The notes under the pieces were generated by a model that was given only the letters and a program-made list of their open reading frames with translations, had not been told where the DNA came from and did no database searches. Shown piece after piece: positions 57,461 through 61,562 of a stretch of DNA of 64,000 nt. This DNA is from Lachnospiraceae bacterium (GTDB taxonomy: Bacteria > Bacillota > Clostridia > Lachnospirales > Lachnospiraceae): contig JAUNAJ010000002.1 of the NCBI GenBank assembly GCA_030527645.1, forward strand, positions 108,229-172,228, written 5' to 3'. The position numbers were made by a program, and so were the translations under genes. Numbering within the stretch: the stretch's first letter is position 1; every line of letters starts with the position of its first letter.

Positions 57461-57530
57461 ATAAACCAATATTCTGTTGATTTCTTTCTGATTTGAAACG
57501 CGCTATTATAAAATAAATTCATTCGCTTAT

Positions 57531-57624
57531 AACCGAGTCGGAATAAGCCGAATAAACTTGAACTATTCCAATAATTATGCTATACTATATTCGACCAAAA
57601 CCGAGTCGGAGGTGACCGAACAAA
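57531..57624 (+). promoter_or_regulatory. consensus promoter flanked by two copies of an operator-like element
   Basis: TTGAAC (57558-57563), 17 nt, TATACT (57581-57586). A 26-nt element opening AACCGAGTCGGA lies just before the -35 (57531-57556) and again just before the ATG (57599-57624); the copies agree at 20 of 26 positions. CCGA-G-TCGG is itself palindromic. The second copy contains the GGAGGTG ribosome site. Confidence 0.75.
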
Positions 57625-59019
57625 ATGAGATTTATCGGAAGATCTGAACAGTTAGCAAAACTAAAACGAGCCATTACAAAGTCTGCAAAGGATGCATCTA
57701 TGCAGACTGTACTCATCTATGGTCGGAGACGTGTCGGAAAAAGTGAACTTGTGAAGCAGCTAATTAAAACTTCTTCAATTCCAAGTATCTATTACGAATG
57801 CAGACAGGTTGCTGAGGAAAGCAATGCGCAGGGAATATGCAATATTTTATCTGAAGAACTTCATCTTCCACGTCTTGGATATCAGTCTGTTGAAGAAGTT
57901 CTTGAATATATATTCAAAAGATCCTGCGAAGAAAATATGATTTTTGTTTTAGATGAATACCCTTATCTACGGGAAAATATCAAGGGAATGGACAGCATCC
58001 TTCAGACAATGATTGATAAATACAAGGACACAGCAAAGCTTACATTTATTCTTCTCGGCTCCTATGTGGAGATAATGAAAAATCTTCTGGAACATTCTAA
58101 CCCACTGTATGGACGTATTGATCTGACCATCAGTCTGAAACCTATGGATTATTATGAATCTGCAGAGTTCTACCCTGCTTTTTCTGAAGAAGAACGTGTC
58201 AAAATCTATTCTGTGTTCGGCGGCATCCCTTATTACAACCGATTGATTGACGATTCTCTGTCCGTAGAGGAAAATTTAATGGAACTCCTGGTTGCCCCGG
58301 AAGCACGGTTAGAAAATGAAGTTTCCATGTATTTAAATGCAGAAATCTCAAAAATCACAAATGCCAATGAAGTATTTGAAGCCCTTTCCAGGGGATATGC
58401 AAAGTATAAAGATATCCTGGATCAATCCCATGTATCAAGCGGTCCGACACTTGTAGACGTACTTGATAAGCTGTCAAAAATGGAAGTTATTGAGAAAAGA
58501 ACGCCAATCAATGATGAGGGAAATAAAAGAAAAGCCAGTTATCATATCAGCGATCCTCTTTCTGCCTTCTATTACCGGTATATTTTCCGTTTCGCTTCTC
58601 AGAGAAAGATCATGGATCCGGAAGTATACTATAATAAGTATATCCGTGAAGATTTTGAATCAGTGTATGTCCCCCATTTCTTCGAAGAAATCTGCAAGCA
58701 ATATCTGATTCGAAGGAATAAAAATGGAGGAATCTCCCCGGTAATAGAAAAAATTGGAAAATACTACTATGATCTTCCGAAAGAACGCAGAAATGGGGAA
58801 TTTGATATCGTAACACTTGACGAAAAGGGCTATGTCTTTTATGAAGTAAAATTTCGCAAAGAAAAAATAACAGTATCTATGGTTAACGAAGAGATTACAC
58901 AAGTAAAAGCAACCGGCATGAGCTGCCATAAATACGTTTTTATCTCAAGATCACCGGTAGATATCGATGGGATTGAGGATCCTGTAGAAGTCATTTCTCT
59001 TAAGGATCTCTGGAAATAG
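57625..59019 (+). CDS. AAA ATPase with DUF234 C-terminal domain
   Basis: A 464-residue protein of the archaeal-type ATPase family. Walker A is GRRRVGKSELV (near 33-43), Walker B is FVLDEYPYL (near 110-118), and there is a helix-turn-helix-like middle part. The C-terminal DUF234 region has a FDIVTLDEKGYVFYEVKF segment that resembles PD-(D/E)xK nucleases (D...ExK). Base use is more AT-rich than in neighbouring genes, suggesting transfer. The ATG directly abuts the second operator-like element, so the gene is probably autoregulated at promoter and ribosome site. Function unknown; defence or mobile-element roles are possible. Confidence 0.85.
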   Translation: MRFIGRSEQLAKLKRAITKSAKDASMQTVLIYGRRRVGKSELVKQLIKTSSIPSIYYECRQVAEESNAQGICNILSEELHLPRLGYQSVEEVLEYIFKRSCEENMIFVLDEYPYLRENIKGMDSILQTMIDKYKDTAKLTFILLGSYVEIMKNLLEHSNPLYGRIDLTISLKPMDYYESAEFYPAFSEEERVKIYSVFGGIPYYNRLIDDSLSVEENLMELLVAPEARLENEVSMYLNAEISKITNANEVFEALSRGYAKYKDILDQSHVSSGPTLVDVLDKLSKMEVIEKRTPINDEGNKRKASYHISDPLSAFYYRYIFRFASQRKIMDPEVYYNKYIREDFESVYVPHFFEEICKQYLIRRNKNGGISPVIEKIGKYYYDLPKERRNGEFDIVTLDEKGYVFYEVKFRKEKITVSMVNEEITQVKATGMSCHKYVFISRSPVDIDGIEDPVEVISLKDLWK

Positions 59020-59061
59020 ATCCGTGGCATGCTGTCGGCAGCCTGCCTTGCATGTATGACA

Positions 59062-59105
59062 AAAACGGTCAGACAGGAACAGTGATGTTCCTGTCTGACC
59101 GTTTT
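59062..59105. terminator. bidirectional terminator
   Basis: A 19-bp perfect stem (59062-59080 with 59087-59105), 6-nt loop, A- and T-rich flanks, between the convergent ATPase and pheT genes. Confidence 0.9.
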
Positions 59106-59141
59106 TTCAGATGTCATTTTCTAAAGCAGATTCTGCCGTTA

Positions 59142-61562
59142 TTATGACCGAAGCTCGATCGCCAGATGATAATTCAGATTCTTCAGGATCTTCTTCACAT
59201 ATCCGTCCACTGTATCACTGCCGAACTCCTCCTCCTTCGGAGTGAAGGTTACGGTAAAGGCCATGGATTTCTTTGAAGGCGGGATCGGTGCTCCCTCGTA
59301 TACATCAAAGAGTTTTACGTCCGTTACAAACGGGCAGGCGGACTTGATCACCTGTTCCACCTCACCGCAGGTTACTGTCTTCTCCATGATCAGCGCCAGG
59401 TCACGCTTCTCAATGGCGTATTTCGGAAGGGGCTGGAAGACCTTGGCTTTTCCGTACTGCGCATACAGAGACGCAAGATCCAGTTCCATGACATAACCCG
59501 GGAATCTCATGTCCTCCTTCTGCATTACCTCGTAGCTGATGCGTCCCAGGTAACCGATCTCTTTGCCGTCGAAGGAAATAGATGCAGTCTGGTAGGGGTG
59601 CAGTCCCGGCTTCTGACAGGGAGCATAATCAAAGGTCAGTTCCAGTACACCGGCAACAGTCTCTGCAATGCCCTTCAGGGTAAAGAAGGATTCGTTCTCA
59701 CCGAATACACCTGCTGCGAGGGTCTCTCTCTCGTCCGGATATTCTGTCAGCGGCAGGTCTTTCGGAATAAATCTGTTTCCGATCTCGAAGATTCTTCCCT
59801 CGAAGGTTCCTCTCTTCATGTTCCGGGCAATGGCATGCACCATCTGAGGTGCCAGTGTGGTACGCATGAGAGACAGATCTCTGTTGATAGGATTGATCAG
59901 CTCGATCGCATGTCTTTCCGGTGCATCCTCCGGATACTCCATCAGATCCAGATCCGCCGGCGAGAAGAAGGAGTAATGCATACCCTCGAAGGCACCTACT
60001 GCGCAGAGGCTTCTCTTCAGCTTCAGTGTGGTCTTCTGGATCAGATTCAGGCCGCCGATGGTCACCTTTGCTGTAGGCATGAAGGTATCCTTGATATGAT
60101 CGTAGCCGTACATACGAATCACTTCCTCAGCGATATCCGGATAATCCTCCATATCCTCACGGTAAGCAGGTACCTGAATGGTCAGCTCGTCTCCGTTGAT
60201 CTCCGGCTGGAAATTCAGGCCGGTAAGGATTCGTTTGATCTCCTCATCCGGCACGGTGATTCCGAGAACACTGTTTACCTTCTCGATGGATGCCTTCATC
60301 CGGGAGGGCTCCACAGAATTTCCTGTATTCACGTCAAAGTGTGTGGAAGAAACCTTTCCTGCTCCCAGCTCCTCAATGAGGTGCAGTACACGCTTCATGG
60401 CCATAACAGTCGCATACTCATCCACACCCTTGGAATATCTCTGGGATGCGTCAGAGGTCTGTCCCAGAGCACGGGAGCTCTTGCGGATATTGTCCCGGGC
60501 AAATTTTGCAGACTCGAACATAACCTCCTTTGTGGTCTCACGGATTCCGGAATTCAGTCCGCCCATGATTCCTGCCAGAGCAACAGCCTTCCTGCCGTCA
60601 CAGATCAGCAGGTTGTTCTCCGTAAGCGTGAACTCCTTCTCATCCAGAGTAACGATCTTCTCACCTTCTGCTGCCCGGCGCACGTGGATGGCATTTCCCT
60701 CAAGGTAGTCACAGTCAAATGCATGCAGCGGCTGTCCCAGCTCTCTCAGTACATAGTTGGTGATATCAACGATGTTAGAGATAGAGTTGTTGCCCAGAAG
60801 AGCCAGCCTTCTTCTCATCCATGCAGGAGACTCTGCAATATTTACATCGTATACATAATGAGCGGAGTATCTCGGACAGAGATCCGGTGCATCCACGGTC
60901 ACGTTGAAGCCTTCCTTTACCACCTCTGTAGGATGGAAGTCCAGAGCGGGCTCATGCAGCTCTGTTCCCAGCACGGCTGCCACCTCTCTTGCAATACCAA
61001 AGATCGACTGGCAGTCCGGACGGTTTGCGGTGATGGCGATATCGAAAATCTGCTCATCCAGTCCCGTGATCACCTTTACGTCCTCACCCACCTTCGCATC
61101 GGCAGGCAGCACCAGCAGACCGTTGTAGCCTGCACCCGGGTACAGATTCTCATTCAGACCCAGCTCTACACCGGAGCAGAGCATGCCGTTGGACTCATAG
61201 CCGCGAAGCTTGCCTTTCTTGATGGTCATGACTCCCTCAATAGTCACATGATCCTTTGCTGTAGCGTACACCTGGGCTCCATGTAAGGCAACCGGGAATT
61301 TTCCGCCTGCATGCACATTGTCCGCTCCGCAGCAGATCTGCAGCAGCTCACCGGTACCTGCATCTACCTTGCATACGTGCAGATGGGTATCCGGAATGGG
61401 CTCGCACTCCACTACCTCACCAACGACAACGCCGCTGATGTCCCTGCCCAGCTCATATCTTTCCTCCACCTCGAAGCCGCAGGAGAACAGCTTCTCCTCC
61501 AGCACCTCCGGTGTCACATTGATGTCTACATATTCTTTTAACCAGCTTAATGGAACTAACAT
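59142..61562 (-). CDS. pheT: phenylalanyl-tRNA synthetase beta subunit
   Basis: An 806-residue beta subunit. The N-terminal EMAP/OB tRNA-binding domain has GVVVGEVVECEPIPDTHLHVCKVD; B3/B4 editing and B5 domains follow. The C-terminal anticodon-binding FDX-ACB domain ends the protein. With PheS it forms the alpha2beta2 enzyme that charges tRNA-Phe. It follows pheS by 21 nt with a GGAGG site, under the T-box leader. Confidence 0.97.
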   Translation of the reverse strand: MLVPLSWLKEYVDINVTPEVLEEKLFSCGFEVEERYELGRDISGVVVGEVVECEPIPDTHLHVCKVDAGTGELLQICCGADNVHAGGKFPVALHGAQVYATAKDHVTIEGVMTIKKGKLRGYESNGMLCSGVELGLNENLYPGAGYNGLLVLPADAKVGEDVKVITGLDEQIFDIAITANRPDCQSIFGIAREVAAVLGTELHEPALDFHPTEVVKEGFNVTVDAPDLCPRYSAHYVYDVNIAESPAWMRRRLALLGNNSISNIVDITNYVLRELGQPLHAFDCDYLEGNAIHVRRAAEGEKIVTLDEKEFTLTENNLLICDGRKAVALAGIMGGLNSGIRETTKEVMFESAKFARDNIRKSSRALGQTSDASQRYSKGVDEYATVMAMKRVLHLIEELGAGKVSSTHFDVNTGNSVEPSRMKASIEKVNSVLGITVPDEEIKRILTGLNFQPEINGDELTIQVPAYREDMEDYPDIAEEVIRMYGYDHIKDTFMPTAKVTIGGLNLIQKTTLKLKRSLCAVGAFEGMHYSFFSPADLDLMEYPEDAPERHAIELINPINRDLSLMRTTLAPQMVHAIARNMKRGTFEGRIFEIGNRFIPKDLPLTEYPDERETLAAGVFGENESFFTLKGIAETVAGVLELTFDYAPCQKPGLHPYQTASISFDGKEIGYLGRISYEVMQKEDMRFPGYVMELDLASLYAQYGKAKVFQPLPKYAIEKRDLALIMEKTVTCGEVEQVIKSACPFVTDVKLFDVYEGAPIPPSKKSMAFTVTFTPKEEEFGSDTVDGYVKKILKNLNYHLAIELRS

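Follow-up and report, generated by a model that had tools for sequence, protein, structure and literature searches.

Paired 37-bp palindromic elements of family-wide geometry as putative operators at the promoters of DUF234 (PDC-S27-like) ATPase genes

The locus lies in a window of 64,000 nt (the whole stretch of DNA analysed here) and holds a gene for a DUF234 AAA+ ATPase, adjoining pheT, together with its promoter and two copies of a palindromic element (Table 1). The encoded protein matched both ATPase_2 (PF01637, 55.7 bits; cut-off 33.2) and DUF234 (PF03008, 54.3 bits; cut-off 22.5) in Pfam, as well as the PADLOC PDC-S27 model over nearly its full length (E 1e-45). Its Walker A and B motifs are intact, G33, G38, K39, D110 and E111 being invariant in 61 sequences, and no WYL domain was detected in it (Pfam, E up to 0.1). 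In the AlphaFold2 model (mean pLDDT 93.4), an AAA+ module is followed by a winged helix and, at the C-terminus, by an alpha/beta domain. The latter carries a PD-(D/E)XK signature, with D394 and E407 invariant and K409 nearly so (D70, E83 and K85 in that comparison); when modelled alone, its nearest neighbours were restriction enzymes and resolvases, in matches that were weak (best E 1.6e-3; R.BspD6I, MspJI, LlaBIII). Over residues 1-319, the closest solved folds were PABY2304 (2qen, Z 23.4) and SSO1545 (2fna, Z 21.6), followed by plant NLRs and Orc/Cdc6 proteins (Z about 16), DNA-bound Orc1/Cdc6 among them. Unlike the ATPase, the 2fna and 2qen proteins are only about 350 aa long, the alignment ending before the nuclease-like C-terminal domain, and we know of no operator for either. 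We regard the protein as a candidate defence ATPase with a predicted DNA-cutting nuclease, the defence role being a database label.

Table 1. Features of the ATPase locus (window coordinates) and of the encoded protein (residues)
Feature	Position	Strand	Details
Distal element	57519..57555	.	37 bp, centre 57537; ends 2 bp before -35
Distal half-sites TCGC / CCGA / TCGG / CCGA	57523-57526, 57533-57536, 57538-57541, 57548-57551		
Sigma-70-type promoter	57558..57586	+	TTGAAC-N17-TATACT; upstream TG before -10
Proximal element	57587..57623	.	37 bp, centre 57605; half-sites TCGA / CCGA / TCGG / CCGA
DUF234 AAA+ ATPase, PDC-S27-like	57625..59019	+	464 aa; Pfam, PADLOC, AlphaFold2 model
Walker A	residues 33-40		GRRRVGKS
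Walker B	residues 106-111		VLDE
Winged helix	residues 247-308		helices 247-255, 261-268, 273-285 and two wing strands; AlphaFold2 model
Recognition helix	residues 273-285		
PD-(D/E)XK-type domain	about residues 330-463		D394, E407, K409
Inverted repeat with A-run and T-run	59057..59107	.	between the ATPase and pheT stops; read from sequence

With a GC content of 37.8%, the gene is the lowest of the 40 in the window (mean 50.3%, sd 3.0), which bears out the earlier claim that it is foreign by base use. No homologue at E 1e-50 or better was found in the two same-genus genomes compared, and the contents of the pheT neighbourhood differ among all three genomes (these two and that of the window), so that the exact ends of an insertion cannot be drawn by empty-site comparison. 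The DNA past the pheT stop (window 59019-59145) is wholly different in two same-genus genomes, marking a variable site. The ATPase is probably an acquired accessory gene. The inverted repeat that separates its stop from that of pheT, absent from the output of the terminator scan, is probably a two-way terminator.

The original prediction described a duplicated element bracketing the ATPase promoter. In a search of the window, the 12-mer AACCGAGTCGGA was found in two exact copies (57531-57542 and 57599-57610), with no third copy anywhere in the 64,000 nt. Both copies are central to a longer repeat (57521-57556 and 57589-57624; 72% identity, 68-bp spacing), and it was comparison with homologues that led us to recognise TCGG-N6-CCGA as the true unit. 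The duplication was thereby confirmed, with each copy larger than first described: a 37-bp palindromic element of four half-sites, TCGG-N6-CCGA-N-TCGG-N6-CCGA, built of two units with one base between them and flanked by TTAT/TTAC arms (layout 8-6-4.1.4-6-8, i.e., 8-6-9-6-8). The distal element reads TCATTCGC TTATAA CCGA G TCGG AATAAG CCGAATAA and the proximal one ATATTCGA CCAAAA CCGA G TCGG AGGTGA CCGAACAA; both are imperfect, each in its first half-site (TCGC and TCGA, respectively). Throughout the genome the paired pattern occurs twice, both times at the ATPase promoter, which excludes a chance origin, and the remaining matches with up to 3 mismatches equal the reversed-pattern control in number. 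A reading of the copies as transposon ends or target-site repeats was rejected, as they flank the promoter rather than the gene and no copy lies downstream.

With respect to the promoter, the two elements are tightly placed. One copy had been said to abut the -35 box; this is true of the full distal element, which ends 2 bp away, and not of the 12-mer itself, which stops 15 bp short. The other had been said to cover the ribosome site up to the ATG; the full proximal element begins directly after the -10 (TATACT), takes in both the presumed start of transcription and, within its last N6 spacer, the ribosome site (AGGTGA), and stops 1 bp short of the ATG. The promoter between them, described as near-consensus, proved to be only a fair match in the window (9/12), the close homologues having TTGCAA or TTGAAA-N16-TATAAT.

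We sought the element upstream of other DUF234 ATPase genes, beginning with a close clade of about 63 non-redundant homologues of at least 53% identity with usable upstream DNA. Here as in the more distant sets, homologues are non-independent samples, and MAG names are unreliable. Presence was scored at 12 or more of the 16 half-site bases, a level reached by about 0.3% of shuffled upstreams. A TCGG-type element was present in 58 of the 63 loci (20 with both copies, 24 with the proximal only and 14 with the distal only), and the remaining five carried symmetric variants of the same geometry: TCAG-N6-TTGA-G-TCAG-N6 (L032 and L039), TCGG-N6-TTGA-G-TCAA-N6-CCGA (L054) and TCGG-N6-TTTA-C-TAAA-N6-CCGA (L045 and L047). 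Half-site changes thus tend to be matched across the dyad, which is what a symmetric DNA binder would lead one to expect. The register was also conserved, distal copies mostly lying 2-5 bp upstream of -35 and proximal ones mostly at 0 or 5 bp after -10 (-34/-19 from the ATG), while the distance from distal to proximal varied from 68 to 80 bp. Of 397 family genomes, seven contained the strict pattern; each of them belongs to the 18 in which a homologue of at least 53% identity is encoded (hypergeometric 1e-10), and the genomes without the gene contained none. No neighbour gene was common to more than two of the 32 in-clade loci with long flanks; a conserved partner gene was thus rejected, leaving the ATPase as the sole protein that accompanies the element.

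Several of the close homologues merit separate mention. Four lie in MAGs labelled Paludibacteraceae, Proteobacteria, Oxalobacter and Spirochaetia (L020, L041, L055 and L065), reflecting either wide transfer or mis-binned contigs. A 54% identical homologue on the Selenomonas ruminantium plasmid pSRC2 (NC_017076.1; L199:486-1877) is annotated as an ATP--cob(I)alamin adenosyltransferase, apparently a misannotation. In another locus (L066:2470-2806) the ATPase copy is cut to 102 aa, the promoter is gone and the distal element seems to run straight into the proximal one at CCGAGT, an apparent product of recombination between the two copies. A peptide-pattern search of IMG/VR, able to reveal close relatives only, returned no phage-borne relative.

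Homologues at 27-36% identity have no TCGG/CCGA, yet elements of identical layout stand upstream of them; across homologues of 24-36% identity the geometry is written in other words (TGAA, TAAA, TAAC, TCAA, CAAC, ATAA). Examples are TTAATGAA-N6-TTCA.G.TGAA-N6-TTCATTAA, found on both sides of the promoter (L088), TTAGTAAA-N6-TTTA.G.TAAA-N6-TTTACTAA (L094), TTAGTAAC-N6-GTTA.G.TAAC-N6-GTTACTAA (L108) and CAAC-N6-GTTG.A.CAAC-N6-GTTG (L062). In loci of the TCAA group, the -35 box (TTGACT) and the last half-site coincide. Start codons in the distant homologues were set automatically by rule, and distances to the ATG may thus be a few codons off. To capture the layout independently of the word, we scored symmetry plus 15-bp repetition, with a threshold of 15. 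Within the same bacterial family, 40 of 52 upstreams reached 15 with a spacer of 6 (null 1.5%; binomial about 1e-62, ignoring relatedness) and 12 fell below it, whereas spacers of 3, 4, 5, 7, 8 and 9 gave 5, 6, 15, 10, 1 and 7, respectively. Since the score had been designed after viewing these 52 loci, two fresh sets were scored. The first comprised 13 DUF234 genes of the same phylum but of other families; 10 reached the threshold at spacer 6 (null 3.8%) and 0-2 at the other spacers. The second comprised 20 plasmid homologues (haloarchaea, rhizobia, Vibrio, Selenomonas and Cetobacterium), of which 16 reached it at spacer 6 (null 1.1%), against one at each of the other spacers, several of the haloarchaeal loci being near-copies. 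An earlier pass on 12 plasmid loci had given 3/12 with a search window that ended at the start codon and cut overlapping elements; for the set of 20 this was extended 12 bases into the gene and scored with its own null. As negative controls, tiles of unrelated DNA rarely reached 15 (5 of 424 in the window, 0.8% in flanks), and the sister family PDC-S01 (DUF4143 ATPase-nucleases) was without the geometry, none of its 27 upstreams reaching 15 and their mean equalling the null. An element, or its counterpart of the same geometry, thus stands at nearly all the DUF234 ATPase genes tested; the absence from homologous genes that the original prediction had named as its refutation was not what we found.

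Incidentally, in six haloarchaeal plasmid loci (L201, L202 and L205-L208) the element overlaps the start codon, which would suit leaderless transcripts. One locus (L102:1501-1531; G151 C73:8972-9002) contains a second element, near-identical to that at L098:1501-1531 and sharing about 60 bp of flank with it; it lies on the same contig about 2.4 kb from the ATPase operator, with an ECF-type sigma factor gene some 110 bp downstream, has no promoter behind it, and is either a segmental duplicate or a second target. Upstream of the DUF4143 (PDC-S01) genes of L169, L170 and L171 (L175 is similar), a palindrome TTCGGCTA-N21-TAGCCGAA stands just before the ribosome site, with the outer spacing of the ATPase element and the inner half-sites missing; PDC-S01 may have operators of its own.

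Taken together, these results led us to the hypothesis that the elements are putative operators, to which the ATPase binds through its winged helix, repressing its own promoter, a reading we consider probable. The site is symmetric and in register with the promoter of the presumed binder's own gene, and the two are co-inherited and co-diverging, the residue-level link being weak. Within a unit, half-sites are 10 bp apart and lie on one face of the DNA, and the units, 15 bp (1.43 turns) apart, lie on nearly opposite faces, which suggests two dimers. A palindromic core CCGA-G-TCGG had been taken to indicate a dimeric binder; the symmetry stands, but with four half-sites instead of that one palindrome, two dimers or a tetramer per element are likelier than one dimer. 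We infer one ATPase protomer per half-site, with two dimers per element probable. Bound protein would cover a zone just upstream of -35 and another from -10 to the start codon, and occupancy after -10 or over -35 would block RNA polymerase, shutting off the gene's own transcription. Release might follow when the protein is engaged elsewhere, for example on the nucleic acid of an invader or after a change of its nucleotide or oligomer state, and expression would then rise. Strict looping by helical phasing was not supported, the window copies being 6.48 turns apart and the spacing varying among loci.

The main rival to autorepression is activation from the distal copy, which would recruit RNA polymerase as a class I activator does, while the proximal copy limits expression to a set-point. 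In favor of such positive or mixed autoregulation, the distal element keeps a fixed register 2-5 bp upstream of -35, stands alone in 14 in-clade loci and, centred near -58, could activate. However, the distal-only loci have strong -35 and -10 boxes (TTGACA/T/G-N17-TATAAT-like), the elements of other groups lie over -35 or just after -10, where activation would not be expected, and the variable distance between the copies indicates no strict phasing. We consider this reading unlikely. Autorepression, which the original prediction had seen as allowed by the layout, remains the best account of the data, given the positions after -10 or over -35 and the good hexamers of the distal-only promoters, at which an activator is unneeded.

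The binder might also be an unrelated host transcription factor that places the gene in a host regulon, as separate regulators with their own operators are known for defence genes (BrxR; PMC9122601) and STAND-like winged helices need not bind DNA. Against this, the element has no further copy in the genome and is missing from family genomes that lack the gene; moreover, the words vary among homologues of a single bacterial family while the geometry is constant and persists into Archaea. A host regulator would need word changes from one homologue to the next and across domains at a constant geometry that is peculiar to this gene, making the ATPase the economical binder and the host factor highly improbable. 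The geometry in Archaea, with their different transcription machinery, counts in favor of the ATPase, along with the confidently modelled winged helix and the DNA-bound Orc1/Cdc6 fold neighbours. Against it, related STAND proteins often have a winged helix that does not bind DNA, and the in-clade recognition helix is acidic (D278, D281), which is unusual for a DNA reader.

The words do group with the recognition helices (TCGG with SSGPTLVDVLDKL, TGAA with SETGLLDKQLKIL, TAAA with STATLTYTLKNL and TCAA with EDTNVCSTYVKNL), a grouping equally expected from shared descent, for which reason the residue link is for us no more than a hypothesis. At position 281, 43 of 46 TCGG loci encode D or E, and K prevails in four other groups (TGAA 6/7, TCAA 6/7, TAAA 7/10, TCAG 2/2). 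Within the clade, the most evident switch (D281K alongside TCGG to TCAG) is a single tree event, the TCAG-type variants forming one clade. In a scan of words against alignment columns, itself confounded by ancestry, 7 of the top 23 columns fell in the winged helix for all pairs, and 2 of 23 for pairs below 45% identity. With few independent changes and a column ranking that is not clean, a residue-level specificity code was not accepted.

Less probable still is a pair of iteron-like sites, with the ATPase acting as an initiator of the Orc1/Cdc6 kind at an origin or partition site that the element would form. The fold similarity, a weak NCBIfam orc1/cdc6 match (33 bits against a subfamily cut-off of 181.3) and the many plasmid copies point that way, but homologues are mostly single chromosomal genes in varied places, their nuclease motif is conserved, and the elements are in register with the promoter and form no separate array. 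Least probable of all is control at the RNA level, by folding of the proximal copy in the leader to hide the ribosome site: that site does lie inside the element and the outer arms are complementary, but folding resembled shuffles in the window and L099 (z 0.17 and 0.43) and was weakly better at three further loci (z -1.5 to -1.9), the 1-nt loop that CCGA-N-TCGG would need cannot close, and the same element also stands upstream of -35, with 14 loci lacking a proximal copy, so that an RNA hairpin as the main function was rejected on folding energies and the translational control once proposed was not supported.

Autorepression through inverted repeats is known, for instance in toxin-antitoxin modules, whose multiple half-sites likewise overlap the module's own promoter; unlike them, the ATPase locus has no conserved second gene. 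Another close parallel is with the BrxR/WYL regulators (PMC9122601), where a winged-helix-type protein binds inverted repeats downstream of the promoter and autorepresses a defence locus. BrxR, however, is a dedicated regulator beside the defence genes, with 11-bp repeats and a 5-bp spacer, whereas here the presumed effector, an ATPase with a nuclease domain, would itself regulate. IniR (PMC5760070) is also an AAA+/STAND ATPase, predicted to be SSO1545-like, that binds a promoter, but it contacts DNA through an SdiA-like domain appended at the C-terminus, acts as an activator of iniBAC and lacks a nuclease domain. PDC-S27 is listed by PADLOC as a candidate single-gene defence system, an ATPase fused to the PD-(D/E)XK superfamily, with about 8,000 instances detected among Bacteria and Archaea (PMC12988326); a rumen survey counted 2,865 PDC-S27/DUF234 (PMC13356809). 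The portions of these two papers that mention PDC-S27 treat it as an unvalidated defence candidate and are silent on regulation or an operator. In the papers searched, which included few subscription journals, we found no function or regulation of DUF234/PDC-S27 and no description of its fixed-geometry operator.

If the ATPase is indeed the binder, a broader and rather doubtful possibility is that the family is its own repressor across Bacteria and Archaea, each lineage keeping a private word in the fixed 37-bp geometry and thus being insulated from paralogues. The promoter-bound protein would then be a resting store, and titration of it by nucleic acid of an invader or by a trigger would arm the nuclease and derepress the gene in one step. 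The family-wide operator offers a first testable handle on DUF234/PDC-S27, as it predicts the DNA for each protein, and promoter release could serve as an assay for the trigger of the ATPase. It also points to an effector nuclease with a STAND/Orc-like fold that would serve as its own transcription factor. Finally, the lineage words in their fixed geometry provide a natural data set for the DNA-recognition code of one winged helix, as well as a source of orthogonal repressor-operator pairs.
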